Shown here piece by piece: positions 1 through 31,533 of a DNA stretch of 64,000 bases (its first letter is position 1; every line of letters starts with the position of its first letter). A program made the position numbers and the translations under genes. The notes under the pieces were generated by a model. The model searched no databases and was not told the origin of the DNA. It saw only the letters and a program-made list of their open reading frames with translations. Source of the stretch: Phocoena phocoena (lineage: Eukaryota > Chordata > Mammalia > Artiodactyla > Phocoenidae); the NCBI RefSeq assembly GCF_963924675.1, contig NC_089230.1, positions 62,001-126,000 on the forward strand. The letters are read 5' to 3'.

Positions 1-3000
1 CCTAGCTGTAACCCTTACCAGAAGCCTTGCCATGACCCGTTCCTTAATCCTAACCCATACACTAATACTGACCTGTACCTTAACATGTACGCTAACTCTA
101 GAGTGTTGAAGTACCCTTACCTGTACCCTAAACCGTACCAATTCCCTATCCCTAACTCTAACCCTAACCCTAACCCTTACCCGAAGACTTACCCTAACCC
201 GTACATTAATCTAACCCGTACATTAACACTACCCCGTACTCTGATACGTACGCTAACCCTAGAGCATTGTCATACACTAACCTTAAGGCGTACCTGTTCC
301 CACCCTAACCCTAAACCTAACCGTAACCGTAACCCTTACCTGAAGCCTTACCCTATCCTGTACATTGATTCTAACCTGTACACTAACACTAACCCATCAC
401 CTCATACATATGCTAACCCTAGAGCGTTGTCATACCCTAACCTATACCCGAAACCGTACAGGTTTCCTAAACCTAATCCTAACCGTAATCTTAATCATAA
501 CCATATCCCTTACCTGAAGCCTTACCTTAACCTGTACCTTAATCCTAACCCATACAATAACACTAACCCATACCCTAACACGTACAGTAATGTTACAGTG
601 TTGTCATACACTAACTTGTACCCTAAACCGTACCCATTCCCTAACTCTAACCCTAACACAAATTGTAACCGTAAACCTTACCCAAAGCCTTACCTTAACC
701 CGTACCTTAATCCTAAACCGTACACTACCACTAACCCATACCCTAATACGTACACTAACCCTAGAGTGTTGAAGTACCCTAACCTGTACCCTAAACCGTC
801 CCTGTCCCCTAACCCTAACTCTAACCCTAACCCTAACCCTTACCGTAACTGTAACCCTTACCCAAAGCCTAACCCTAACCCGTCCCCTAATCCTAACACG
901 TACACTAACACTAACCCATGCCCTAACACATACACTAACCCTAAACCACTGTTTTACCCTAACATGTACCCTAAACCATACTCATTCCCTAACCCTAACC
1001 CTAACCCTAACACTTACCCGAAGCCTTACCCTATCCCGTACCCTAAACCTAACCCGTACAATAACACTAACCTGTACCCTAACACATACGCTGACCCTAA
1101 AGCGTTGTTGTACCCTAACCCGTACCCTAAACCGTATCTGTTCCCTAATCCTAACCCTAAACCTAAGTCTTACCCAAAGCCTTACCCTAACCCATACCCT
1201 AATCCTAACCCACACACTAACACTAACCCATACCCTAACACGTACGCTAACCCTAAACCGTTGTCATACCCAAACCTGTACCCTAAACCGTCCCCATTCC
1301 CTAACCCTAACCCAAAACCTAACCCTAAACCTAACCCTTACCCAAAGCCTTACCCTAACATGTACCTTAATCCTAACCCATACACTAACACTAACCCATA
1401 CCCTAACATGTACACTAACCCTAAACTGTTGTCGTACCCTGACCTGAACACTAAACCATACCCGTTCCCTAACTCCGACCCTAACATTAACCGTAACTGT
1501 AACCCTTATCTGAAGCCTTACCCTAACCCGTACCTTGATGCTAACCCTTACACTAACACTAACCCATACCCTAACACATACGCTAACCTTAGAGCTTGAT
1601 CGTACCAAAACATGTACCCTAAACAGTACCTCAGACCTAACCCTAACCCTAACCCTAACCGTAACCGTAACCCTTACACAAAGCCTTACCCAAACACGTA
1701 CCTTAATCCTAACCCATACACTAACAGTAACCATTACCCTAACACGTACGCTAACCCTAGAGCGTTGTCGTACCCTAAACTGTACCGTAAAACATACCTG
1801 TTCTCTAACCCTAACCCTATCCGTAACCGTAACTCTTACCCGAAGCCTTACCCTAACCCGTACCTTAATCCTTACCCATACACTAACACTTACCCGTACC
1901 CTAACATGTACACTAACCTTAGAGCATTGTCATACCCTAACCTGTACCCTAAACCGTACGCGTTACCTAACCCTAAACCTAAGCTTAATTGTAACCCTTA
2001 TCCGAATCCTTACCCTAAACCGTACCTTAATCCTAACCCATATTCTAATACTTACACGTATGCTAACCATAGAGCGGCGTTGTACACTAACCTGTACCCT
2101 AAACCGTACCAGTACCCTAACGCTAACCCTAAGCCTAACCATAACTGTAATCCTTACCGGAAGGCTTACCTTAACCCGTAACTTAATCCTAGCCCGTACA
2201 CTAACTCTACCCTATACCCTAACAGGTATACTAACCCTAGAGCATTGTCATGCACTGACCTGTACCCTAAACCGTACCCTTTCCCTAACCCTAACACTAA
2301 CACTAACCCTAGCCGTAACCCTTACCAGAAGCCTTGCCATGACCCGTTCCTTAATCCTAACCCATACACTAATACTGACCTGTACCTTAACATGTACGCT
2401 AACTCTAGAGTGTTGAAGTACCCTTACCTGTACCCTAAACCGTACCAATTCCCTATCCCTAACTCTAACCCTAACCCTAACCCTTACCTGAAGATTTACC
2501 CTAACCCGTACATTAGTCCTAACCCGTACACTAACACTAACCCATACTCTGACACGTACGCTAACCCTAGAGCATTGTCATACACTAACCTTAAGGCGTA
2601 CCTGTTCCCACCCTAACCCTAAACCTAACCGTAACCGTAAACCTTACCCAAAGCATTACCCTAACCCGAACCTTGATCCTAACCGGTACACTAACACTAA
2701 CCCATACCGTAACACATACACTAACACTAGAGCGTTATCGTACACTCAACTGTACCCTAAATTGTACCCGTTCCCTAACCCTAACCCAAACCCTAACCAT
2801 AACAGTAACCCTTATCCGAAGCCTTACCCTAACCCTAACCTTAATCCTACCCCGTACACTAACACTAAACCTTACCCTAACACATATGCTAACACTAGAG
2901 CGTTGTCGTACAATAACCTGTACCCTAAAGCGTACCTATTCCCACATTTTAATCCTAAACCTAACCGAAACTGTAAACCTTACTCAAAGCCTTACCCTAA

Positions 3001-6000
3001 CCTGTACCTTGATCCTAACCTGTACACTAACACTAACCCATACGCTAACACATACACTAACACTAGAGCGTTGTCAAACAATCACCTGTACCCTAAATCG
3101 TACCCATTCTGTAAACCTAACCCTAACCCTAACCGTAACCGTGACCCTTACCCGAAGCCTTACCCTAACCCATAGCTTAATCCTAACCTGTACACTAACA
3201 CTAAACCATACCCTAACACATACACTACCCCTAGAGCATTGTAATACCCTAACCGGTACACTAAACCGTACCTGTTCCCTGACCCTAACCCTAATTGTAA
3301 CCCTTACCCGAAGCCTTACCCAAACGCGCACCTTAATCCTAAACCATACATCCTAACCCATACACTAACACTAACTCATACCCTAACATGTACGCTAACC
3401 CTAGAGCGTTGTCATACACTTACCTGTACCCTCAACCGTACCCGTTCTCTAACCCTAACCCTAACCGTAACCGTAACCCTTACCCGAAGCCCTACTCTAA
3501 CCCGTACCTTAATCCTAGCCCGTACACTGACACTAACATGTACCCTAACACGTATGCTAAACCAAGAGCGTTGTCGCACACTAACTGGTACCCTAAACCG
3601 TATCCATTCCCTAACCCTAAGTATAACCATAACCATAACCGTAAATTTACCCGAAGCCTTACCCTAACCCGTACCTGAATCCTGAAACATACACTAACCC
3701 TAACCCATACCCTAACACATACGCTAATCCTACAGCATTGTCATACCCTAACCTGTACCCTAAATCATACCCCTTACCTAACCCTAACCCTAACAGTAAT
3801 TGGAACCCTTACCCGCAGCCTTGCCCTAACCCGTACCTTAATCCTAACCCGTACACTAACACTAACCCATACCCTAACACATACGCTAACCCTAGACCGT
3901 TGTCGTACACTAACCTGTATTCTAAAGTGTACCCGTTCCCTAACACTAACCCTAACCCTAACAATACCGTAACCCTTACCTGAAGCCTTACCCTAACCGG
4001 TACCTTCATCCTAAAATGTACACTAACACTAACGCATCACCGAACACATATGCTAACCCTAGAGCATTGTCATACCCTAACCTGTACTCGAAAACGTACA
4101 GGTTCCCTAACCCTAACCATAACCGTAACTGTAACACTTACCCGAAGCCTTACCCTAACCCGTAACATAATCCTAACCCGTACCCTGACACTAACCCATA
4201 CCCTAACATGTGCACTAAACCTAGAGCGTTGTCGTAACCTAACCTGTACCCTAAATCACACCCGTTCCCTAACACTAACCACAACCATAACCGTAACCTT
4301 TATCCAAAGACTTACCCTAACCCGTACCATAATCCTAAAACGTACACTAACACTAATCCATACCCTAAAACATATGCTAACCCTAGAGCATTGTCGTACC
4401 CTAACCTATACCCTAAAACGTACCCGTTCCCTAACCCTAATCCTAACCCTAAACATATCCCTTACCTGAAGGCTTACCCTAACCCTTACCTCAATCCTAA
4501 CCCATACACTAACACTAACCTGTACCCTAAAAGGTAGGCTAACCCTAGAGCGTTGTCGTACACTCACCTGTACCCTAAACCGTACCCGTTCCCTAACCCT
4601 AATCCTAACCCTAAGCGTTACCGTAACACTTACCTGAAGCCTTACCCTAATCCGTAACTGAATCCTAAACCATACTCTGACACTAACCCGTACCCTAACA
4701 CGTACGCTAACCCTAGAGTGTTGTCGTAAACTAACCTGTACCCTAAATCATACCCATTCCCTAACCCTAACCCTAACCATAACCGTAACCTTTACCTGAA
4801 GACTTACCCTAACCAGTACCTTAATCGTAAAACGTACACTAACGCTAACCCATACCCTAAAACATACGGTAACCCTAGAGCATTGTCATACTCTAACCTA
4901 TACCCTAAAATGTACCCGTTCCCTAACCCTAACCCTAATTTTAACCGTAACCATATCCCTTACCTGAAGCCTTACCCTAACCCATACCTTAATCCTAAGC
5001 TGTACACTAACACTAAACCATACCCTAAAACATATGCTAACCCTAGAGCGTTGTCATACACTCACCTGTACCCTAAACCGTACACGTTCCCTAACCCTAA
5101 CCCTAACCCTGTTACCGTAACACTTACCCAAAGCCTAACCCTAACCCGTAACTTAATCCTAACCCGTACGCTGTCAATAACCCATACCCTAACATGTACC
5201 CGAACCCTAGAGCATTGACGTAACCTAACCTGTACCCTAAATCATACCCGTTCCCTAACCCTAATCCTAACCCTAACCGTAACCCTTACCAGAAGCCTTA
5301 CTCTAACCCGTACCTTAATCCTAACCCGTACACTAACACTAACTCGTACCCTAACACGTACGCTAACCCTAGAGTGTTGTCGTACACTAACCTGTACCCT
5401 AAACCGTACCCGTTCCGTAACACTAACCCTAACCCTAACCATAACCATAACCCTTACCTGAAGCCTTTCCGTAACCCATACCTTAGTCCTAACCAGTATA
5501 CTAACATTAACCCGTACCCTATCACGTACGCTAACCCTAGAGCGTTGTCATACACTAACCTGTACCCTAAACCGTACCCGTTCCCTAACCCTAACCCTAA
5601 ACCTAACCATAGCCATAACCCTTACCGGAAGCCTTACACTAACCCGTACATTAATCCTAACCTGTACACTAACAATAACCCGTCATCTAACACATATGCT
5701 AACTCTAAAGCGTTGTCATACCCTAACCTATACCCGAAACCGTACAGGTTCCCTAAACCTAACCCTAACCCTAATCTTAACTGTATCCAAATCCCTTACC
5801 CGAAGCCTTACCCTAACCTGTACCTTAATCCTAACCTGTACACTAACACTAACCCATACCCTAACACATACAGTAACGTTACAGTGTTGTCGTACTCTAA
5901 CTTGTACCCTAAACCGTACCCGTTCCCTAACTCTAACCCTAACACAAACCGTAACCATAAACCTTACCCAAATCCTTACCCTAACCCGTACCTTAATCCT

Positions 6001-6130
6001 AAACCTTACACTAACAATAACCCATACCATAATACGTACACTAACCCTAGAGTGTTGAAGTACCCTAACCTGTACCCTAAACCGTACTCGTTCCCTAACC
6101 CTAACTGTAACGGCAACCCTTACCCGAAGC
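1..6130. repeat. Subtelomeric satellite of diverged CCCTAA hexamers, nested period about 165 bp
   Basis: The stretch is built almost wholly of CCCTAA and variants such as CCGTAC, CCCATA, CCTTAA and CCGTAA. A recurring landmark (ctaaccctagagcgttgtc, then taccctaacctgtaccc) marks a longer unit. I placed the landmark at 112, 273, 433, 607, 775, 955, 1111, 1267, 1435, 1603, 1771, 1933, 2093, 2251 and 2419. The intervals are 156-180, mostly multiples of six, and average about 165. Internal duplications are visible: 1-335 recurs at 2308-2640, and about 390-790 recurs at about 5676-6076. The C-rich strand reads 5' to 3' from the left edge, as at a left chromosome end. Long open frames here (for example 85-1599 on +) arise because a hexamer repeat without an in-frame TAA never stops; I do not call them genes. 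Confidence 0.93.
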
Positions 6131-7410
6131 CTTAACCTAACCCGTACCCTAATCCTAACCCGTACACTAACACTAACCCGTACCCTAACCCTAGAGCGTT
6201 GTCATACACTAACCTACACCCTACACCGTCCCCGTTCCCTAACCCTAACCCTTACCATATGCCTTACTCTAACCCGTACCCTAATCCTAACATGTACACT
6301 AACACTTACCCTTACCCTAACACATACCCTAACCCTAACCCGTTGTCATACTCTAACCTGTACCCTAAGCTTTACCCGTTCACTAACCATAACCCTAACC
6401 CTAATCATAACCCTTACCCGAAGCCTTGCCCCAACACGTACCCTAATCCTAACCTGTACACTAACACTAACCCATACCCTAACACGTACCCTAAGCCTAA
6501 CCCGTTGTCATACCCTTACCAGTACCCTAAACCGTACCCGTTCCCTAACCCTAACCCTAACCCTAACCCTTACCCTAGGCCTTACCCTAACCCGTTCCAT
6601 AATCGTAACCCGTACACTAACACTAACCCATACCTTGACCCTAACCCTAACACTAACACTAAACCTTTGTCAAACCCTAAGCTGTACCCTAAACCATAAC
6701 TGTTCCGTAACCCTAACCATAACCCTAAACCTAACCCTAACCCTTACCCTAAGCCTTACACTAAACCGTACCCTAATCCTAACCCATTGTCTTACCCTAA
6801 CCTGAACCCTAAACCATACCCGTTCCTTAACCCTAACCCTAACCATAACCCTTACCCTAATCCGTACCCTAATCCTAAACCGTACACTAACCCTTACCCT
6901 AACACATTCCCTAACCCTAAGCCATTGTCGTACTCTCACCTGTTCCTGAAACCGTACCCGTTCCCTAACCCTAACCCTAACCCTTACCCTAAGCCTTACC
7001 CTAAACCGTACCCTAATCCTAACCCCTACACTAACACTAACACATACCCTAATCCTAACCTGTTGTCGTACCCTAACCTGTATCCTAAACCGTACCCGTT
7101 CCCTAAGCCTAAGCCTAAGCCTAAGCCTAAGCCTAACCCTTACCCTAAGCCTTCCTCTAAGCCGTACCCTAATTCTAACCCGTACACTAACACTAACCCA
7201 TACCCTAACATGTACTCTAACCCTAACCCATTGTCGTACCCTAACCTGTACCATGAACCGTACCCGTTCCCTAACCCTAACCCTAACCGTAACCCTAACC
7301 CTTACCCTAACCCTTACCCTAAACCGTACCGTAATCCTAACACGTACACTAACACTAACCCATACCCTAACCCGTACCCTTTCCCGTACCCGTACCCTAA
7401 CCCTAACCCT
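6131..7410. repeat. Inner part of the subtelomeric array, shorter units and closer to canonical CCCTAA
   Basis: From about 6130 the motif acgctaaccctagagcg gives way to aaccctaacccgttgtc, and runs of intact CCCTAA become more common. Landmarks at 6061, 6205, 6349, 6511, 6673, 6793, 6931, 7069 and 7237 are 120-168 apart, every interval a multiple of six. The array stops sharply near 7410, about 75 bp upstream of the IGHV leader. This block is probably a different age class or conversion tract of the same satellite. Confidence 0.85.
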
Positions 7411-7486
7411 TGCATAGCGGGAGCTCAAAGCTCTCTCCTCAGGCACGGCTGTGGTCTCTGGGGGAGGCAGAACTGTGGTCTAGGAG

Positions 7487-7913
7487 ATGCAGCTGTGGGG
7501 TCTTTTCCTCTGCCTGATGACGGATCCCCAAGGTGAGTGTCTCAGGTTCAGGGCCGGTCTATGGGGATGATTGTGGCTTCAGGTGGCTAAGAGGGACTGA
7601 TTCTCCTTGTTCTCAGGTGTCCTGTCTGATCTGACACTGCAGAGTCTGGCCCAGGACTGGTGAAACCCTCACAGACCCTGTCCCTCACCTGTGCTGTCTC
7701 TGGGGGCTCTGTAACCAGCAGTTACTACTGGAATTGGATCTGCCCATGCCCTGGGGAAGGGTTGGAGTGGATGGGGTACTGGACAGGGAGTACAAGCTAC
7801 AACCTGCTTTCCAAGGCCGAATCTCCATCACTGATGACACGTCCAAGAACCAGTTCTCCCTGCAGCTGAGTTCTGTGACCACCGAGGACACAGCCGTGTA
7901 TTACTGTGCAAGG
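7487..7913 (+). pseudogene. Immunoglobulin heavy-chain variable segment, frameshifted (IGHV orphon or distal pseudogene)
   Basis: The layout is that of a germline V gene. A 46-nt first leader exon (7487-7532, start MQLWGLFLC) ends at a gtgagt donor. A short intron of about 84 nt ends at ttctcag (7616), followed by the second leader part and a V exon to 7913. Framework 1 ([19 protein letters not shown]), [14 protein letters not shown] and framework 3 ending DTAVYYCAR are all readable. They resemble the clan II (human IGHV4/6-like, ruminant IGHV1-like) type. Two one-base losses break it: one at the start of framework 1, after which the spliced frame meets TGA near 7661, and one at about 7806, before AFQGRISI. 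The normally invariant R-Q after W-I is C-P. It cannot encode a V domain. I see no octamer promoter in the 75 bp between it and the satellite. Confidence 0.9.
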
Positions 7914-7952
7914 GACAGTGAGAGGAAGTCAGTGTGAGCCCAGACACAAACC
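7914..7952 (+). promoter_or_regulatory. V-segment recombination signal sequence, 23-bp spacer
   Basis: Directly after the terminal TGTGCAAGG lies a heptamer gacagtg (7914-7920, one change from CACAGTG). A spacer of exactly 23 bases follows, then the nonamer acacaaacc (7944-7952, against ACAAAAACC). This is the arrangement expected 3' of an IGHV gene. The first heptamer base is altered from C to G, a position known to matter for RAG cleavage, so the signal is probably weak or dead. Confidence 0.85.
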
Positions 7953-8587
7953 TCTCTGCAGGGAGACAGGAGAGGCTGGGCTGTAGGGGGAGCTCAGAGA
8001 CTAGTCCCAGGAGCCGGTGCAGCGGGTGGCAGGGAAGGTGGTTTCGGTTGGGATTGAGAATTACCTCTCCACGACGTTCAGCTGCCCCAAGGGACATTTC
8101 AAGTTTTTTTCTGTCTCTGAATTCTCATATTCTCAGTGCAGCCAACAAATGAGAAAGTTATATTGTCTATTTGCAGATGGGATATCATCAGTCACTAGGG
8201 ATGTGTCCATCAAGTTCCTATATCTTATTTATTTTTCTTGACAAAGAGAACATCCAGAAGACTCTCAGCTTCCCTGTGATTCGAAAACATTTCCACAAAG
8301 GGAGGTACCAGCACATTTCATCAACTCTGTGTCCAAACCCAACTTCGACCCCCTCACGCACAGGTGGCCCACATATAGGACCTCCTGTCAGACAGGCACA
8401 TATGACCTCAGGGGGTTATGATCAGTGCATCCCCAGGACCTCTGTTCACAGGGTCTCTCTCCCCCCAGGATATGTTAACCTCCTGCTTCTGATTTACTGG
8501 GGTGGATGTTGAACCCACCCCAACATAACGCTCTGCCTTCTACCTTTTAAATTCTCCCTCTACCTGTCCTAGACCCTGAGCACCGTG
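7953..8587. other. 3' flank carried with the IGHV segment, no gene seen
   Basis: This unique sequence lies between the recombination signal and the TTAGGG tract. I find no exon, SINE or second V segment in it. It most likely moved or was duplicated together with the V gene. A match to IGHV downstream DNA would confirm that. Confidence 0.4.
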
Positions 8588-8646
8588 GGGTTAGGGTTAG
8601 GGTTAGGGTTAGGGTAGGGTTAGGGTCAGGGTTAGGGTTAGGGTTA
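8588..8646 (+). repeat. Interstitial telomeric repeat (TTAGGG)n, inverted relative to the chromosome end
   Basis: About nine and a half near-perfect GGGTTA units with one shortened (gggtag) and one variant (gggtca) unit. The G-rich strand is on +, opposite to the C-rich orientation of the array at 1-7410. It is far less diverged than that array. Confidence 0.95.
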
Positions 8647-9304
8647 AAAAGAAGCACACAAGAGCTCAGAAAACCAAGTAGTGTTTCCCTCTGTAAGGGG
8701 AATTTATGAGGTAAATCTCCATTTGAAAGGGTGTCTCCCTCTCTGTACCAGGAATAGGGTAACTGAAGCTCAAGAAACTTTTACCTATGGCGAAGGTCTG
8801 GACTTAAATCTACATAACAAACATACCCTTGTTTACTATGCACTGCCTGATGACCTCCTTTAACTGGCTTCCCTCCTCTCCCAACACCTTTTGTTTTTTA
8901 ACTGAAGATGGTATATAAGGGAGATTAGGTCATTTCCTGAGTTAGTTTTCCTGGTGTTGACCTGAAACAAACAGCCAGATATTTCTCCAGCAAATATGGG
9001 TTTATTCTCAGGATCGGGAGAAAATCACAACTTGGAGGTCTGCAACCACAGCAAGGCACATGAGCATCCCCATGAGTCAAGGGAAGGAAACACCTCTGCA
9101 GAAAGGAAGAGGACCCTGGACAGGCTATAGCAAACAGTACACAACTTTTTATTGGCTGAGTCCTTGAGTCCTGGCTCAGTCCTTTCCTGAGGCCAGGAAA
9201 TGAGAGTCTTTCTTCTCACTGTGGGTCTCCGCAATTGCGGTAACGCATGAGAGCTCTCCGTTCTGGTCTCTCCGTCCTACTTGAGGTTTCTGCTTATTAA
9301 TTTT
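8647..9304. other. Unclassified stretch, possibly a retroviral LTR fragment
   Basis: No coding exon is visible. The + strand has a TATA-like tatataagg at 8912-8920. The - strand has AATAAA (tttatt at 9001-9006) and a second aataaa-like site near 9150. Short regulatory signals at this spacing suggest a solo LTR remnant, but I cannot name a family and do not see the terminal tg...ca ends or a target duplication. Confidence 0.25.
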
Positions 9305-9440
9305 TACAACACTAACCCCCAACTCTTAGCCCTTGGCCCAATCTCTAAACCCAAACCTAACTCCTAACCCTTAACTCTAGGCCCTAACCCCTAAGCTTAT
9401 CCCTTCCCCACCATCCTAAACCCTCTCCCTAACTGCACCC
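9305..9440. repeat. Degenerate TAACCC-type block next to the PDCD2 promoter
   Basis: Loosely spaced ctaaccc, ctaaacc and ctaactc units in the same C-rich orientation as the main array but much more decayed. It lies between the LTR-like stretch and the PDCD2 CpG island. It probably marks an older edge of the subtelomere. Confidence 0.65.
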
Positions 9441-9923: not shown

Positions 9924-10206
9924 ATGGCATCCGGGAGCGTCGGGCTGGCTGAGCTGGGTTTTGTGGAGGCGGCGCCGGCGTGGCGGCTGCGCAGCGATCA
10001 GTTCCCCAGTAAGGTGGGCGGCCGGCCGGCGTGGCTCGGCGCAGCCGGACTGCCGGGGCCCGCGGGGCTGGCCTGCGCGCTGTGCGGCCGCCCACTGGCC
10101 TTCCTGCTGCAGGTGTACGCACCGCTTCCGGGCCGCGCCGACGCCTTCCACCGCGGCCTCTTCCTTTTCTGCTGCCGAACGCCACCGTGCTGCGCCGGCC
10201 TACGCG
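9924..10206 (+). CDS. PDCD2: PDCD2 coding exon 1
   Basis: Residues 1-94 plus the first base of codon 95, ending at a gtgagc donor. It starts [13 protein letters not shown] and lies wholly inside the CpG island. Confidence 0.95.
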
Positions 10207-13200
10207 GTGAGCGGCCCGGGGCCCGGGTAGCGCGTGCGCGGTGAGTGGCCTGCGGCCCCGGTCGCGCGTGCGCTGCCTTGCTCGTGGTCAGGGCCCAGGG
10301 ACCGTGCAGCCTCCTCTGCGACCCCGCCGCGGGCCTCTCCCCTGTACCCCGCGAGCGTTTCCGGGGGTGGGGGTTAGTTTCAAGGGCTCGCGCCTTCTTC
10401 GACCCCAGCTTTTTGTTAATCAGTCGGTAGTGGGTGTTCAGATAATAGAACCTGTAATTTTTCGGAAACCTGGGTTCCAACACGTTGCTCATATGTATGT
10501 AGTCTGACTTAATGTTACTTTTGTTACTAATTTGAACAAGCTCAAAGAGCCTACTTAGTTGTATGGACTTTAAAAAGTTTCTCGTTTTCACTCTTATTTT
10601 TTCTTCCTTTCCAGCAAATAAGCTTTTTGAAAGCAAAAACTTTCTATTCTTTTTAAAAAATGACTGTCTTTTCAGTCCTGTGTGAAGGCTCAAGTATTTG
10701 AATTGCTATGTTGTTTTATTTAAACATGTGTAACGTTTCTCCTCCTCTCTCCTTAGTTTTTAGAAATCAGTTGCCTAGGAGAAATGACTTCTACGCCTAT
10801 GAGCCACCTTCTGACGATCCTCCGCCGGAGACAGGAGAATCCGTGTGCCTCCAGCTCGAGTCCGGTGCTCATCTGTGCAGAGTTTGCGGCTGTTTAGGCC
10901 CCAAAACATGCTCCCGATGTCACAAGGCACATTACTGCAGCAAGGAGCATCAGACTCTGGACTGGAGATTGGGACATAAGCAGGCTTGTACACAAGAAGG
11001 TCAGTCAGTTCTGTTTTTATTTTTAAATCTGAGCTCAGTTTCATAGTGTCTGTCAGGCCAAATCTTTCATTTTGAGGATAAACGTTAACATTACAAAAGG
11101 TGTAATACTTTTCAAAGCTTTGGTTAACTAGTGACATAAACACCTTTATGAAGAAGGAACTGTGAGGTTTTCCCACTCACGTCCCAGCCTAGCTTTAGTA
11201 TAGTCATTTAATTTATGAGCCATAATCTAAAATGCTGGAGCTACGTATGTTAATTACTAGGGAAAACTGTTATGACATGGAATACACTTCAGATATAGGA
11301 AATTATTTGACCTTCCAAACTAAATGATTACTAATGATGCTAGTTACCTTACTTTGTTTCAGGTGATTTGGACAGTACAGTTCCAGACCACAGCTTCCTT
11401 TTTCCAGAATTTGAAATTGTAATAGAAACAGAAGATGAGATTATGCCTGAAGTTGTGGGAAAAGATGATGAATCAGAGATTATAGGTAGCATGGGTAAGG
11501 AATCAGTTTCAAAACTCATTCATTAAATATACACTACTATGTATAAAATAGATAACTAATGAGAACCTACTGTATAGCATAGGGAACTCTACTCAGTGCT
11601 CTGTGGTGAACTAAATAGGAAGGAAATCTATAAAAGGGGATATATGTATAAGAAAAAAAAGGAAAAGGGTGGGGGGAAGAATAGTGAATCTAGTTGAAGC
11701 AGAGAGAAAGTAGAGGGTCAAGTGTCCCAACATTCCAGCCTCAAGGGACATGTTGTCACCCATTTCAGGGGACACTGACGACCTGCCATGGAGACCTAGG
11801 GATTAGAGAACCAGTTTGGAGACACCCGTCTTAGATCATTGCTAAGACAAAAAACGTTTTTCTGTTTAACTAACATATGAGGAGATTCAGTGCCAGATGT
11901 TTAAAAGCACCTAGGGAGAGGGATGCTATGTTTGTTGGTGGGTAGTAGTGTTAGAGAGTGTGCTTTGGGGAAGAATTCACTGATGAAGGAGTCTGATAGA
12001 AAATTTCCAATAACAGGTGAGAGAGAACTCCCTGTATTGAGTGTCCAGTGAAATGAAACCATGCTGTATCTAAACTGGACAGTGCATGCCATTGATCCAC
12101 ACTGTCTCTACTCCCTCAGACATGGGGCCAATAAAGTAATAAGCAATAGAAATGTAAAAAAAAAAAAAGAATAAAAAACTCTTTCATTAAGTGATTAAAT
12201 ATAATGCTTGAAAGGAAGGGCTCAAGATGCCAAGAAAAGAAGCACTGATAGGAAAAGGCAACTCACTTGGGAGGCTGCAACCTATACTTTTCAAATACTG
12301 CCTCATTTGAAGATATCCTTTCTGTACTTCCCTCCTTGGCATATACAGGAGCGTTCTGGGTCCTGTAAAGGTGTCAGAGGAGGTATCCAGGTGGTCAGCG
12401 GGGTGGGGCTGCACAGGATGCTGGAAACTTGGGAAGTTTATCTGGCTCCAGGGTTTGTTTCTCTGATTGAGATGGTGGACATGAGAGTGCCTAGCAGCGT
12501 TTGGTGGGCAGCAGGGGGCCCTTTTATCTGGCAAGTTTCAGATACTTGATTTCATCAGTCGCCTCATGGTTATCAGACTCTGGAGCAGTGCCTGTGCTGA
12601 GACTGAGCCGTAGCCAGAGTTTATCCAACACTCACTCTGTACCACGGGCCTTTGGTGCACGATCTTACTAAAGTCTTGACATCAGAACAGTATGTTAGAA
12701 ACTCTGCCCCATTTTGCAGTGAGGAATTTGAGGTTCTGGGTATAACTTGCTTGGTCGTGTAACTGACTAAAGTTGTTAAGTTCTAGAGCTGAAGTTTGAG
12801 CTCACGCCTTACTGACTCCAAAACTTGAGCTCAAAATTTAGATTTCAGAATCTAAATTAAATTTTGGATTAGAATGTCACCTTACTGGCTTACAGTTCAC
12901 TTTCAGGGTATCAGAAATATCTTCTGAGTTACAAAGACTTGATCCTGTTGGGGATGGCGGTGTTTCAGGTAGCTGAGATTCCAGAGGTGAGTGTGAAGGA
13001 GTGAGCTGGTAGGGTTAGGGCATGTGATGACTGAATGAGTGTAAGGGAAAGGAGAGATGAAACATGAAGAGATTGGAAGTAAGAGTCCAGATGGGTGAAG
13101 GACACTAGTGATAAGCAGGGCTCATATTTTTTGGGTGCCATTTTGTGTGCTGGGCACAGCAGTCCTCAGACTGGGACTTGGGGTCTGTTCTTTTAATTTG

Positions 13201-16200
13201 GAGTTTTAAAGAGAAGCTCTTACTAGGAGCCGGCATAGTAATAATGCTTCATGGAGTACCTGCAAAGTCAGATGGTCTTAAAGCACAAACATTAATGAAT
13301 TAAAATAGGAAAGCCTGTGGAAACATCTGGCCTTCACTGTCTGATTTAACACTAAGTTGGTTGTTTAAAACTGGCTTCCCTCAGCATGTGTTTATTGTCC
13401 AGACATGGAGATTATTCCTGTTGCATAATAGTTATGTTGATAATCTTTTAGGTGAAGCACCTGAGGAAGAACTGGATTCCATGGCAAAACATGAATCTAG
13501 GGAAGATAGAATTTTCCAGAAGTTTAAAACCAAAATATCCTTTGAACCAGAACAGGTAAAATAGAATTCATATACAGCTCCTTCTGTTCTTTTCAGGTGG
13601 TGGTTTAGGGGTATAAACCCTGAGTAGGGAATTCCCTGGCAGTCCAGTGGTTACGACTCTGCACTTCCATCGCTGGGGGCCCAGGTTTGATCCCTGGTTG
13701 GGGAACTAAGAAACCAACCTGCAACTTTAGCACAAAGACCACTGTGGTTTTGTGAAAAGAATAATGGGTTTTGCTGTTATGAAGAATTCTGGCTTCTTGA
13801 ATTACATATTGACCTTCTGATGTAATTGTATCTACAGTGTGGGGAAAAAAAAAAAAAGAGTGGTTTTGAGGATTAAGGTAGATTGTAGACTCACGGTAAG
13901 TATTCAGCAAATGTTTTCCTTTGCCTCTTTTCTTCCATTAACTTTATTCCCCTTAACTTCCCTTAACATAAACATAAATCACTAAAGAAGACAGCTAAAT
14001 TCCCATAAGTCAGTCGCTAGAGCAAATAAACATCCAGGGGCTTACAGGAAGAGTAGGTCTAGGTCCTAAACACTGAGAAGGTAGTTTTTAGCAACGCATA
14101 TGCTTTTAACAAGAAATATTGAGGAAGGTCACTCATTTGTTATAAGATGTTATAACAAAATTTACTTCTGTTTTATTTAAACACTGTGGCTCACTTGGTA
14201 TTTGTTCCTTTAAAAATTGTTAACTAAGTTTCCTTATATCTGTGTGAAGGTAAGCACAGACCCTGGGCTGCATGTTAGGTTGACAACCTGGTGATGGGGA
14301 AACAGGATTATTGTTAGTCTCTTCACAAAACAGTCATAGGATTCAGATTCTAACCATATTGACATCTAAGAAAAATAATTTGGATATCCTGAATCAGATA
14401 AGCTGAAACAGTCCCTTTGATCGGGGGCCCCAAACCCTGGGCCAAGGACCGGTACCGTGAAGCTTCAGCTGCCACTCCCCGTCGCTCGCATTCACGCCAG
14501 AACCACCCCCTTCCCCCTCCCTGTCCGTGCAAAAATTGTCTTCCACGAGACAAAACCAGTCCCTGGTGCCAAAAAGGTTGGGCACCGCTGCCTTTGATGA
14601 CACTGAGAACGGTATTAATTGTGCCCAGTGGAGGGGCGCAGGGGGACAGACAATAAAGTGGTTTTCAGATGAGCGTTTCATCAATCGTAAGAGTATGTAC
14701 AAAGCTTCTCTAGATGATCCTCAGATCACATGAGATGTTGCTGATTTAAACTGATCCTTATTGATTTTAGATTCTCAGATACGGCAGAGGGATTGCCCCC
14801 ATCTGGATCTCTGGTGAAAATATCCCTCAAGAAAAGGATATTCCAGATTGCCCCTGTGGTGCCAAGAGAATATTTGAATTCCAGGTATGACCTTAAATAA
14901 GTACTATTTTAGTATGTAATTACCCTGATTTATAATTTTAAGCATTAAAAAACTTTGCCAAAGTAACATATGTATATGGGTCCCTATGGTGTTACGGAAG
15001 GTTCCCTATAATGAAAATCAGTAGTTTCCTACCCCACCTTAGGGCTTGTTACAAGGAGGGAATTATCTTTTACTGGTTATCTGGTAGTTATTTCTATCTT
15101 TAAATAGCATGCTTTTTCTGAGATTTATCAGTTTACTAGTTTTTTAGACATCTGTTGACTGACTTCTGCAGTAGTGAGGATTTAAATGTAGTCACTCACA
15201 CCATCTAGACCATCGCCCACTTCCCAGTGTGGTTAGGGTCAATATTATTTTAGTGCCTCTATTGTTACTTTTATAATTTAAAATAATATACCTTTTTTAC
15301 AATATTTGACTCTCTCCTTTGTGAGAGTGTTTCAGAACGCTTACTCTGTTTAGTCTTGGTTTGTAGATTTGTTAGGAGAACAAATTAATGTAATCATTAA
15401 GGTAACTGCCCCCCCCCACCCCCCCCGCCAGAAGTTGTTAGCATCAAAATCTGTTTGAGTTGGGCGGAAATGCTCCTGAATTGTGTATTCACTAACCTTA
15501 TAAAGTGATATTTGTCTCTTAGGATAAAAAAAGGATTTTTGTGGACTGATCCAAAACTAATTGGTTCTTACTGCCAGAGCTCTGACTGACGCCCAAGATG
15601 AGCTGACGGTGGTTATATAAAGCAACTTGATAACAGTAGTGGCAGTGCTGGCTCTTACTCTTTCCCATGAGACCACTGACTCCTAAGACCCATTTCTAGT
15701 CTATACAAATACATCAATAGATTTCCTTTCTGTATTCTACTAGGTTAGTGTTTCTTCAGAGTCATAGGAACAGCATCTGCTATTCAGGTTGTAAATAACC
15801 CAAAATAAGAGTTGCCCAAAGAGAAGCCTCATCCCTATTTTGTGGCATATTATTAATAAAAAAATAATTAGGTTAACAGCCAGGTCACATAGATCAGCTG
15901 ATCTTATTATACTTAGGAACTTCTTTCTTAAACGAAAAAGAAAGACACCAAATAGAGAGGGACTTTAAAGAAACATAGTTGCAAAGTATTTTTAGATTGT
16001 TAAGTATGTTAACACCATTAATGTCTGTAATCTTGCTGTGGAGATGGAGAGACCAGGATCCCCAGGAAGGTCTGGTCTGTTGAAAGCAGACTGTGCTCAT
16101 CACCGCCAAGGAGCGCTCTGACTGTGCTATCCTTTTCCCAGGTCATGCCTCAACTGCTCAACTACCTGAAGGCCGACAGACTGGGCAGGAGTGTCGACTG

Positions 16201-16300
16201 GGGCGTCCTGGCCGTCTTCACCTGTGCTGAAAGCTGTGGCCTGGGCACTGGCTACACAGAGGAATTTGTTTGGAAGCAAGATATAACAGATACCGCCTAA
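9924..16300 (+). CDS. PDCD2: Programmed cell death protein 2, complete, six coding exons, 344 aa
   Basis: PDCD2 is a conserved cytoplasmic and nuclear protein. It acts as a dedicated chaperone of the small ribosomal subunit protein uS5 (RPS2) and is needed for cell proliferation. Coding exons are 9924-10206, 10757-10999, 11363-11494, 13452-13555, 14771-14884 and 16142-16300. All introns are GT-AG. The sum is 1035 nt including TAA, giving 344 residues, the human length. The N-terminal part ([19 protein letters not shown], then paired cysteines) is followed by a MYND zinc finger at about residues 135-172 (C-x2-C-x7-C-x2-C, then Y-C, H and C). The PDCD2 C-terminal domain occupies about 190-340, with CPCGAKR and a [12 protein letters not shown] end. 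The start is the first ATG after the CpG-island leader. I see no disabling change. It is the gene nearest the telomere in this window. Confidence 0.97.
10757..10999 (+). CDS. PDCD2: PDCD2 coding exon 2 (MYND zinc finger)
   Basis: Preceded by a pyrimidine-rich tract and ttag, followed by gtcagt. It carries all zinc ligands of the MYND finger (LCRVCGC ... [10 protein letters not shown] ... GHKQAC). 243 nt, phase 1 at both ends. Confidence 0.96.
11363..11494 (+). CDS. PDCD2: PDCD2 coding exon 3
   Basis: Acceptor tttcag, donor gtaagg. It encodes the acidic linker with [17 protein letters not shown]. 132 nt, phase 1 at both ends, so skipping it would keep the frame. Confidence 0.95.
11526..11660. 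mobile_element. LINE-1 3'-end fragment in PDCD2 intron 3
   Basis: The run with aaaatagataactaatgag, then aacctactgtatagcatagg, then ggatatatgtata matches the 3' tail of cetartiodactyl LINE-1 elements as I remember it. The polyA end is not clear. Confidence 0.55.
12600..12790. mobile_element. MIR fragment in PDCD2 intron 3
   Basis: An old tRNA-SINE signature: an actctgtacc... core, then ccccattttgcagtgagga, then ggtcgtgtaactgac. It is strongly diverged, as expected for MIR. Confidence 0.5.
13452..13555 (+). CDS. PDCD2: PDCD2 coding exon 4
   Basis: Acceptor cttttag, donor gtaaaa. It encodes [15 protein letters not shown] and ends in phase 0. Confidence 0.94.
13627..13730 (+). mobile_element. 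Short tRNA-derived SINE (CHR/Bov-tA type) in PDCD2 intron 4
   Basis: Head attccctggcagtccagtgg, then a gggggcccaggtttgatccc box-B-like region and a ggggaactaagaaacc tail. Only the tRNA-related part remains. It is more diverged than the CHR copies elsewhere. Confidence 0.8.
14422..14590. mobile_element. Non-autonomous hAT-type DNA transposon, 169 bp
   Basis: The ends cgggggccccaaac and gttgggcaccgctg are imperfect inverted repeats of the kind seen in an old mammalian hAT family. The middle has accggtaccg, then attgtcttccacgaga. An 8-bp direct repeat, cctttgat, flanks it exactly (14414-14421 and 14591-14598), which is the hAT target-duplication length. I am unsure of the family name. It lies in PDCD2 intron 4. 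Confidence 0.8.
14771..14884 (+). CDS. PDCD2: PDCD2 coding exon 5
   Basis: Acceptor gattttag, donor gtatga. It encodes [14 protein letters not shown] and the CPCGAKR cysteine pair. 114 nt, phase 0 at both ends. Confidence 0.95.
16142..16300 (+). CDS. PDCD2: PDCD2 coding exon 6 with stop
   Basis: Acceptor ttcccag. It encodes [17 protein letters not shown] through WKQDITDTA and ends in TAA at 16298-16300. The last residue differs from the human proline. Confidence 0.95.
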
Positions 16301-29105: not shown

Positions 29106-29143
<38 letters not shown>

Positions 29144-31533
29144 TGCTGCTGCCTTTGCTGTTCTTCCAAAATAGACAGACTGCTGGTGCTCTGAATAGGC
29201 TGTGGAGTCAGTCCTGTGCCATACGGCATCATCGGACTAAAGATAGGGATTCCAGGAGTCATGGCCCCCTGTGAGAAGTTAGGAGAACAATGGGTTAGGC
29301 TGGCTGGTGTTTGTGTCTGTAGGACTTGGCTGGTAGAACAGCAGGTGAGATTTGCAAAGACAGGCACCTTCCGAGTACAAAGGGGGTTATATAGCAGTAA
29401 TGGGGAGGAACTTGCTGTTCTTACACACATCACTTTCTTCTTCAGCATAACACAGTAGGTAAGAGCTTAGGATGTGGAAGCAGACCTGGGTGTGAAATCC
29501 AACTCTGCTACTTACAACACGTGAGAATTTAAGGAAGCTCCTTAACCCTTCAGGCTCTAGAGGATAACAATGCTTTAAGACTTAGAAAAAATCGAGAACT
29601 TCTACTCTTTGAAAGATACCATTAAGAAAATTAAAACTTGGGACTTCCCTGGTGGTCCAGTGGTTAAGAGTTAAGAACCTGGCGTGCAATACAGGAGACG
29701 CCGGTTCGAGCCCTGGTCAGGGAACTAAGATCCCACAGGCTGCGGGGCAACTAAGCCCATGTGCCACAACTGGAGAGCCCGAGTGCCACAACTACAGAGC
29801 CCATGCGCTCTGGATCCTGTGCACCACAATTAGAGAGAAGTCCGTGCGCCACAACTAGAGAGAAGCCCACGTGCTGCAACGAAAGATCCCATGTGGCACA
29901 ACTAAGACCCTACGCAGACAAAAAAATAAAATATTTTTTTTAAAAAAAGAAAATTAAGCCACAGACTACGAGAAAACATCTACCATACATATATCTGAGA
30001 AAGAACTCGTATCCAGACTACATAAAGAACAATCAAAATTCAATAAAAGATGAAAAAACAGACCAATAAAGAATGGGCAAAAGATGTGAAGGACATTTTA
30101 CAAATGAAGATCTATAAATAGCTAATAAGCACTTGACAAGATGTTCAAGATCATAAGTCAGAGGAAAATGCTTGTACTTCTAGAACGGCTGAAGTAAAAA
30201 CCCAAGGGCCGGTGAGCACGTGGAGCAACTAGAACTCTCACGTGTCGCTGGCAGAGCCTCAGAACATGCTTTCTTATAGAGTTAAATATGCACGTACACA
30301 ATGACCCAGCAATCCCACTCCTGAGTACTCACCCAAGAGAAACAAAAACACAGCCAACACGGAGAAATGTACACAAACGCAAAGCACCTTTATTCACAAT
30401 GGCCCCAACCTGGAAACAACCCTAATGTCAGCAACTGGAAAATGGACAAACTGTCGGACACCCATACAACAGAGGGCTACTTGGTGATAAAAAGGAACTT
30501 GCTGATACACAAAGAAGACAGACACAAAAAAAGCATACACTGGTATGGTGCCATTTCCATGATATTCTAGAGTAGGCAAAACTATCTCTAACTCTGGAAA
30601 GCAGATCATTAGTTGCCTGGAGCTAGGGGAGTGACTGCAAAGGGGCAGGAAGGGACTTTTAGGGTGACTGAAATGTTCTATAACCTTCACAGGTGCATAC
30701 ACTTATCAAAACACATACTTAAAATGGGTGTTTTTTGACTTCCTGGTGGCACAGTGGATAAGAATCCACCTGCCAATGCAGGGGAAACGGGTTCGATCCC
30801 TGGTCTGGGAAGATCCTACACGCCGCGGAGTAGCAAAGCCCATGCGCCCCAACTACTGAACCTGCGCTCTAGGGCCCACGTGCCACAACTACTGAAGCCC
30901 ACACACCTAGAGCCCATGCTCTGCAACAAGAGAAGCCACCACAAGAAGAAGCCCACGCACCACAACGAAGAGTAGCCCCCACTCGCTGCAACTAGAGAAA
31001 GCCTGCGCGCAGCAACGAAGACCCAATGCAGCCAAAAATAAATAAAATTAAATCTTAAAAATAATAGAGTGTTTTTATTTAAGTATGTAAACTACACTTC
31101 AACAGAAGTTACTTAAAAATTTAAAAGTAGCTACATTATTTGGAACCTTAAACATAAAAATGAAAAGAAAACTAGAAGATAATTTGGTTAGAGTTATCTC
31201 CAAAATCAAACACCCTATAATCACTCAGACCACTTTCATAAGTGCTTTTCAAAAGATTAAGTTTTACAAATACACATTTTAGCTTCCAAACAAACTCCCC
31301 AAATCAAACACTATCATGTTTATTCAAAGCCTAATAGAACTTCTCAATGAAATAAAGGAGGCTTAAAAAATATAAATCCATTTTCAACAACAGATGGTTA
31401 AATTCCCTTGCTTCCCTTTTACACTGTCTCTAACAATGCAGATTCTGTCCTAAGTGTACCCTCCCTCCAGTTGTATTACCTGAGGGGAGGCCAGGCCCTG
31501 GGCATAAGGTGGGAGGCTGTTGTTCTGATCCAT
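20806..31533 (-). CDS. TBP: TATA-box-binding protein, complete, seven coding exons, 315 aa
   Basis: TBP is the DNA-binding core of TFIID, SL1 and TFIIIB. It recognises and bends promoter DNA for all three nuclear RNA polymerases. In transcription order the coding exons are 31533-31480, 29268-28898, 25999-25912, 24181-24090, 23048-22881, 21674-21580 and 20885-20806. They sum to 948 nt including TAA. The N-terminal arm begins [18 protein letters not shown] and holds a polyglutamine run at residues 58-72, then a Pro/Thr-rich MTPMTP segment. The conserved saddle core of about 180 residues starts near residue 135 (GIVPQLQNIVST). It contains both pseudo-repeats, with [12 protein letters not shown] in the first and GKVVLTGAKVRAE in the second, and ends KGFRKTT. 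No core residue looks damaged. It is shorter than the human protein (339 aa) mainly through the polyQ. It converges with PDCD2 and diverges from PSMB1. Confidence 0.98.
21580..21674 (-). CDS. TBP: TBP coding exon 6
   Basis: Acceptor cttctag, donor gtaagt. It encodes [19 protein letters not shown] and FVSGKVVLT. 95 nt. Confidence 0.96.
22881..23048 (-). CDS. TBP: TBP coding exon 5 (link of the two core repeats)
   Basis: Acceptor ccctag, donor gtgagt. It encodes [33 protein letters not shown] and LTHQQFS. 168 nt. Confidence 0.96.
23303..23537 (-). mobile_element. Older tRNA-SINE (CHR/Bov-tA type) in a TBP intron
   Basis: Reverse copy: an A/T-rich tail at the left, ggctgtgccgggtcttag, and the tRNA head at the right (accagagaagtccc). 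The direct repeat agccctagatttt at 23290-23302 and 23538-23550 is a perfect 13-bp target duplication. Confidence 0.9.
24090..24181 (-). CDS. TBP: TBP coding exon 4
   Basis: Acceptor gttttag, donor gtgggt. It encodes [16 protein letters not shown] and [10 protein letters not shown] of the first saddle repeat. 92 nt. Confidence 0.96.
25069..25397 (-). mobile_element. CHR SINE (long form) in a TBP intron
   Basis: Reverse copy running from an AT-rich tail (aaataaatttatttattt) through ggctgcgttgggtcttc to the head gcgccaccagggaagccc. Target repeat taggctgtt at 25060-25068 and 25398-25406. Confidence 0.92.
25440..25850. mobile_element. Probable old LINE-1 3' fragment in a TBP intron
   Basis: The motifs ctattcttaagtaaattcc and aaacataaatgggatcatac resemble old L1M 3' sequence. 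Family and limits are uncertain. Confidence 0.4.
25912..25999 (-). CDS. TBP: TBP coding exon 3 (start of core repeat 1)
   Basis: Acceptor ttacag, donor gtcaga. It encodes [18 protein letters not shown] to ARNAEYNPK. 88 nt. Confidence 0.96.
26160..26340. mobile_element. MIR element in a TBP intron
   Basis: A typical MIR: ttattaagtgtttaaacaag, ccattttcagatgaagaagc, then tgaggcttaag and aacttgctc. Diverged but easily recognised. Confidence 0.75.
27107..27388 (-). mobile_element. CHR SINE inside the LINE-1 relic
   Basis: ggctgtgttgggtcttcg at the left through gcggcatgtgggatcttccc to the head gtgccaccagggaagccc. It is inserted in L1 ORF2 sequence, so it is younger than the L1. Confidence 0.92.
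27558..27845 (+). mobile_element. CHR SINE, opposite orientation, in the same LINE-1 relic
   Basis: Head ggacttccctggtggcgcag, tail gcagccaaaaataaataag. The flanking repeat aagtgtgttattt (27545-27557) and aagtatgttattt (27846-27858) is a near-perfect target duplication. Confidence 0.92.
28898..29268 (-). CDS. TBP: TBP coding exon with polyglutamine tract
   Basis: Acceptor ctcacag, donor gtgagt. 371 nt covering residues 19 to about 142: [12 protein letters not shown], the E-E-Q-Q-R-Q15 run, then QLFHSQTL, the [13 protein letters not shown] repeats and SGIVPQLQ. Confidence 0.97.
29107..29151 (-). repeat. TBP: CAG/CAA polyglutamine repeat of TBP, 15 codons
   Basis: Read on the - strand this is 3 CAG, 1 CAA, then 11 CAG, directly after a Q-Q-R lead and before A-A-V. 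Human alleles are usually in the mid-twenties to about 40. Only one CAA interrupts the run. Confidence 0.95.
29465..29580. mobile_element. MIR fragment in a TBP intron
   Basis: The sequence gaagcagacctgggtgtgaa, then actctgctacttac and ccttaacccttcaggctc, is the MIR core and tail. Confidence 0.6.
29640..29946 (+). mobile_element. CHR SINE in a TBP intron
   Basis: Head gggacttccctggtggtcc, ggttcgagccctggtcaggg, then gccacaact units and an A/T tail. Flanking repeat aagaaaattaa at 29624-29634 and 29947-29957. Confidence 0.9.
29960..30710 (+). mobile_element. LINE-1 (L1M-type) 3' ORF2 fragment in a TBP intron
   Basis: Landmarks in order: agaatgggcaaaagatgtg, then acacaatgacccagcaatcc, then tattcacaatggcccc and aacctggaaacaaccc. 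All belong to the 3' part of LINE-1 ORF2. It is on the opposite strand to TBP transcription. Confidence 0.8.
30737..31067 (+). mobile_element. CHR SINE in a TBP intron
   Basis: Head gacttcctggtggcacag, then repeated ccacaactactga units and an agccaaaaataaataaa tail. A flanking gtgttttt repeat is probably its target duplication. Confidence 0.88.
31480..31533 (-). CDS. TBP: TBP first coding exon (residues 1-18)
   Basis: ATG at 31533-31531; donor gtaata just below 31480. The exon extends upstream as 5' leader to about 31680, where ...caaagcag precedes CATCACTG. The leader before ATG (ttgccaagaagaaagtgaac) matches the human TBP leader as I recall it. Confidence 0.96.

Follow-up and report, generated by a model that had tools for sequence, protein, structure and literature searches.

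How does a heavy-chain V gene segment (IGHV) come to lie within 2 kb of PDCD2, at the satellite-covered end of a porpoise chromosome? The window, that is the whole stretch of 64,000 bp of Phocoena phocoena DNA analysed here, corresponds to positions 62001-126000 of a 90.8-Mb contig (C12). The original prediction, made from this stretch, left two explanations: an orphon moved by exchange between chromosome ends, or a heavy-chain (IGH) locus that adjoins this block in this lineage. Our analysis, with own-genome searches of the 2.51-Gb assembly (439 contigs), indicates that the segment is very probably an IGHV orphon pseudogene, an IGHV4-like DNA copy which moved to the PDCD2 subtelomere of a non-IGH chromosome, probably before the split of toothed and baleen whales. 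The features of the window that bear on this are as follows.

1..7410, + strand: telomere-like satellite with a 168-bp unit, CCCTAA strand (TRF, CCCTAA counts per kb)
7411..8587, + strand: orphon block, comprising the V gene with its flanking DNA and bounded by telomere-like arrays that run on opposite strands
7487..7532, + strand: leader exon, MQLWGLFLCLMTDPQ
7533..7616, + strand: leader intron of 84 bp, GT..AG
7617..7913, + strand: V exon, IGHV4-like, in three successive frames
7914..7952, + strand: RSS, with heptamer GACAGTG, 23-bp spacer and nonamer ACACAAACC
8588..8646, + strand: (GGGTTA)n of 59 bp, on the opposite strand to the satellite and forming the right edge of the block (TRF)
9308..9433, + strand: short satellite-like stretch on the PDCD2 side (blastn)
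9924..16300, + strand: PDCD2 coding exons, 5' end toward the chromosome end

Structure and defects of the V segment

The region from 7487 to 7952 has the architecture of an IGHV gene segment, since leader exon, short intron, V exon and 3' RSS with its 23-bp spacer follow one another in order, as had been predicted. The predicted distances also hold: 76 bp separate the end of the satellite (7410) from the ATG of the V gene (about 75 bp had been given), and the ATG of PDCD2 at 9924 lies 1,971 bp past the nonamer. Homology to heavy-chain V exons emerged from own-genome, PDB and protein searches and from a tree. In the own-genome DNA search other IGHV were found at E values of 2.5e-68 (C19) and 6.0e-44 (C154). 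The 3' piece of the V exon matched the Pfam V-set; the 5' piece gave no match when searched alone against Pfam, and matched 6,965 distinct PDB sequences, the matches listed being antibody chains in 60 of 60 cases. The RSS agrees with the consensus at 14 of 16 positions. At the same spacing none of the 53,900 start positions between 10001 and 63900 of the window reached 14/16, and two reached 13/16.

The V exon reads as ...STSYN and then PAFQG...YYCAR over three successive frames because of two frameshifts, and the single open frame from leader to CDR3 that marks a functional IGHV is thus absent. Both frameshifts are losses of single bases in short runs and could be sequencing errors. The heptamer (7914-7920) is GACAGTG instead of the consensus CACAGTG and is therefore not the intact heptamer of a functional IGHV; the first three bases are described as crucial in a bovine study (PMC3661452). 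We had taken this for a single base change and dropped the idea, since an alignment with the V genes of C154 and C19, which have GACACAG here, looks like a loss of two bases; the result is unaffected, and the spacer is still 23 bp long despite the change. A supposed 6-bp deletion in CDR2 was likewise dropped because members of this subgroup normally have a short CDR2. Two V genes of C154 carry the core of the promoter octamer at -116 and -126 relative to the leader ATG. The exact core motif is absent from 7201-7490 of the window, where satellite takes over from -76.

The window V segment is a pseudogene, as had been proposed, with two frameshifts, an altered heptamer and a 5' flank that stops short of the octamer position; the two frame breaks and the heptamer defect go beyond the original prediction. 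It is expected to have no function in antibody formation, because it is on a different chromosome from the constant genes that were located, lacks the consensus first base in its heptamer, has two breaks in its reading frame and meets satellite before the octamer position is reached.

Relatives, the IGH locus and age

The closest DNA relative in the genome is a pseudogene on C19 (71% over 612 columns), followed by the C154 V genes (about 70%). These values of 70-71% apply to most of the length; identities of 74-84% occur only in pieces of about 80-185 bases, some of them at 74-76%, and the 3' pieces of 80-118 columns at 81-84% lie mostly next to clan III-like V genes. An origin as a recent duplicate of an IGH V found in the assembly was rejected on account of the identity of about 70%, and a retroposed origin because the intron is kept.

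A protein search gave 525 matches; among the best 120, which were listed, the top one was blue whale (Balaenoptera musculus) A0A8C0CZZ1, at 89% to the two-piece query, and the next were an ENA protein (87%) and proteins of meerkat, horseshoe bat and Myotis. The tree was built over 100 columns from 24 rows, namely the window V, two C154 types and 21 sequences picked by hand from the 120 listed, with the cat and panda rows having odd 3' ends. Of the 21 inner branches, 12 are weakly supported (drawn open). The window V falls within a group of 15 rows (100/98) marked by a short YW.G...YNPAFQG-like CDR2, among whose members are meerkat, cat, panda, bats, Fukomys, elephant and Tasmanian devil. Outside this group are the C154 V types and the primate VH4, horse, donkey, musk deer and rat rows. 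The dog gene IGHV4-1 presumably belongs to the same subgroup, as both have the marks SSYYWNWI and YWTGST.YNPAFQG. By its sequence the window V is a member of an IGHV4-like subgroup apart from other clan II V genes, a sharper placement, from protein search and tree, than the correct original call of clan II-like. Judged in the same way, the subgroup is distinct from the V genes found at the IGH of this assembly.

The original prediction had called for the IGH locus of this species to be mapped, and the locus was traced to the start of C2 and to C107 and C154. A search of the assembly with the C1-set gave 54 matches, none of them on C12. Three of the places were read: C107:87.5-89.5 kb, C2:17-19 kb and C2:32.5-34 kb, which from their conserved sequence we take to be IGHM, IGHE and IGHA, respectively. 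IGHE and IGHA are on the + strand of C2 and are transcribed away from its end. With a clan II V as query there were 41 matches, of which 32 are on C154, two on C107, two in the window V and one on C19, with four weak ones on C13/C2. C107 and C154 are separate contigs of 170 and 190 kb that bear parts of IGH. Three types of V gene are intermixed on C154: clan II, clan III-like (read in one copy) and pseudogene. This contig appears as an IGHV array of tandem units of about 14.5 kb; each of the first units has one clan II V, one clan III-like V and one pseudogene V, and four of the clan II copies have identical translations.

Since IGHE and IGHA are on C2, IGHM and V genes on C107 and the V array on C154, the window V is an orphon off the main locus, C107 and C154 having no chromosome placement. 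What had suggested a heavy-chain locus adjacent to PDCD2 in this lineage was the V segment next to that gene; with the constant genes where they are, and C1-set matches lacking on C12, that explanation has practically no probability left. As IGH is in pieces in this assembly, the parent gene of the orphon may be missing from the assembly rather than lost.

A second and more decayed IGHV orphon is located at C19:59879739-59880336 (-), 0.6 Mb from the end of C19. At 3.3 kb from it, toward the C19 end, are the ORFs of a broken ADAM-family gene (C19:59883648-59885500, +), with reprolysin and disintegrin matches on one of the two ORFs tested. This order of V orphon and ADAM relic, a candidate ADAM6, recalls the human neighbours ADAM6 and IGHV, which PMC8945572 gives as ADAM6, IGHV(II)-1-1, IGHV6-1, IGHD. 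Dog has two ADAM6 candidates, one between IGHV3-4 and IGHV3-5 and one upstream of the whole locus (PMC5871656), so that an ADAM neighbour need not mean a D-proximal position.

The age of the orphon is suggested by the blue whale match. Read in pieces, the window V is identical to A0A8C0CZZ1 in 114 of 122 residues; the leaders differ in two, and both have ICP in FR2 and a DSERKSV end encoded through the changed heptamer. The tree pairs the two (86/91). They differ in that A0A8C0CZZ1, a copy known from the protein alone, is an open reading frame. From the shared protein marks we infer that the two genes are orthologous, and the oddities ICP and DSERKSV argue for a common source copy that could no longer recombine. 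The gene was thus probably unusable before toothed and baleen whales separated, some 35 My ago. An open frame in the blue whale is no evidence for selection, because on a rough neutral estimate the probability that no lesion arises in 35 My is 0.04-0.35. A further scenario, which we regard as very improbable, would have the cetacean ancestor fix the orphon at the PDCD2 end, with loss of recombination and later selection in baleen whales to keep its open frame as a germline-encoded protein with a single V domain, while the porpoise copy decayed. As the blue whale entry suggests, annotation may take such a relic for a gene.

The chromosome end and the route of the copy

PDCD2 is apparently intact, being free of stops in the six exon pieces checked. 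The order beyond the block is PDCD2(+), TBP(-) and a PSMB1-like exon (+); the same order, PDCD2, TBP, PSMB1, is found at human 6q27. A (CTG)15 on the plus strand at 29107-29152, within a minus-strand TBP exon, presumably encodes the glutamine tract of this gene. The conceptual PDCD2 protein is identical to that of the finless porpoise (Neophocaena) in 296 of 300 aligned residues, with narwhal in 295, and with seven of the eight other cetaceans compared in 284-294 of 300; Kogia, with a differing end, agrees in 254 of 288. Four PDCD2 residues are common to the window and Neophocaena and different in the other cetaceans compared (in Kogia three of the four were seen), so that PDCD2 most likely points to a porpoise.

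On the other side of the block, C12:1-69410 consists throughout of the 168-bp telomere-like satellite except for one island of 4.7 kb. A 31-base form of the unit has 280 copies in the genome (129 forward, 151 reverse), and its reversed control none in either direction. Placement was judged by contig starts: of 100 places listed, 21 are within 0.5 Mb of a contig start, all on the + strand, and belong to seven contigs (C5, C8, C10, C12, C14, C17, C20). Others are internal, e.g. at C2:149.6-150.2 Mb of 177.8 Mb. In titles and abstract starts we found no publication on this repeat as a cetacean subtelomeric satellite. The island (C12:52670-57350), which by eye holds L1 and retrovirus-like remains, has copies elsewhere that are about 86-93% similar over the longer matches (32 of 11,800 candidates scored). 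Seven other copies were inspected for their flanks; three (two on C10, one on C5) lie in like satellite with closely similar junctions and four do not, which suggests exchange among satellite blocks. The satellite-like patch at 9308-9433, absent from the original prediction, had a best match of 73.8% over 126 columns (E 8e-12) among the blastn matches to C12 satellite listed; 8647-9307 is the stretch between it and the inverted telomere repeat. DNA matches of the block to other loci of the genome extend to 7997, and no match at other loci was found for 7998-8587.

The kept intron points to a copy made at the DNA level. Such a copy of an IGHV4-like V gene would have landed in the subtelomere of the PDCD2-bearing end, probably before toothed and baleen whales parted. 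It would have been transferred or inserted from one chromosome end to another, and telomere repeats may have sealed the join. We lean, without strong confidence, toward insertion of a copied segment over terminal exchange. In particular, a copy of a D-proximal IGH segment may have been inserted at a subtelomeric break that telomere repeats partly sealed, a plausible course which seems to us somewhat short of probable. The inverted 59-bp (GGGTTA)n at one edge is in its favour, and the subgroup, with the ADAM neighbour on C19, hints at the D-proximal region if the human order (PMC8945572) is the guide. Against it, neither an empty site nor a source copy was seen, the edges of the copied segment are undefined where the block has no match elsewhere, and the ADAM relic is only possibly ADAM6, for which one dog candidate is upstream of the whole locus (PMC5871656).

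The original prediction of movement by exchange stands as regards the orphon, IGH being elsewhere; exchange itself is only compatible with the data. In its simple form, the end of the IGH chromosome, satellite and outermost V together, would have replaced that of the PDCD2 chromosome. The constant genes are at a contig end here, and the telomeric place and orientation of IGH are general in mammals except monotremes and marsupials, according to PMC5871656; on C12 and C19 alike the V segment has retained the orientation to the nearest end that IGH has, the satellite recurs at seven contig starts among the places listed, and the island has its similar junctions on C12, C10 and C5. One clean swap would, however, not be expected to leave an inverted (GGGTTA)n on the right or the patch at 9308-9433, and an inner V is hinted at as the source both by the related C19 orphon near an ADAM relic and by dog IGHV4-1, the most C-proximal V according to PMC9269486. 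A simple exchange is rather unlikely in our judgement. It is improbable that assembly wrongly attached a stray piece of IGH to the PDCD2 end: bovine IGH pieces on BTA7, BTA8 and BTA20 are suspected assembly faults in PMC3661452, and parts of the porpoise IGH do lie on the small contigs C107 and C154, but C12:1-126000 is free of N, the identity of the window V to IGH V genes of the assembly is only about 70%, and satellite-like sequence flanks the block on both sides.

Comparison with known orphons

A limited check of the literature (titles, abstract starts and passages) found no published report of this orphon at the PDCD2 end. It is a datable relic of an IGHV subgroup found, in this assembly, only outside the main locus; understanding of antibody formation is unchanged by it. 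For cetaceans, exceptionally compact immunoglobulin loci have been reported (PMC13320880), and IGHV pieces occur here on two further chromosomes (C12, C19). As a kind, IGHV orphons are well known, and those at human 15q11.2 and 16p11.2 lie off IGH and are unable to contribute to antibody chains (PMC7555362). Like them, the window V is on a non-IGH chromosome. Unlike them, it stands alone within subtelomeric satellite next to PDCD2, where the human sets comprise 9 and 16 IGHV, and its subgroup was not seen among the IGH V matches of the same genome. Dog IGHV4-1, among the two most used V genes of that species according to PMC9269486, is in use at IGH, whereas its porpoise relative is dead and on a non-IGH chromosome.
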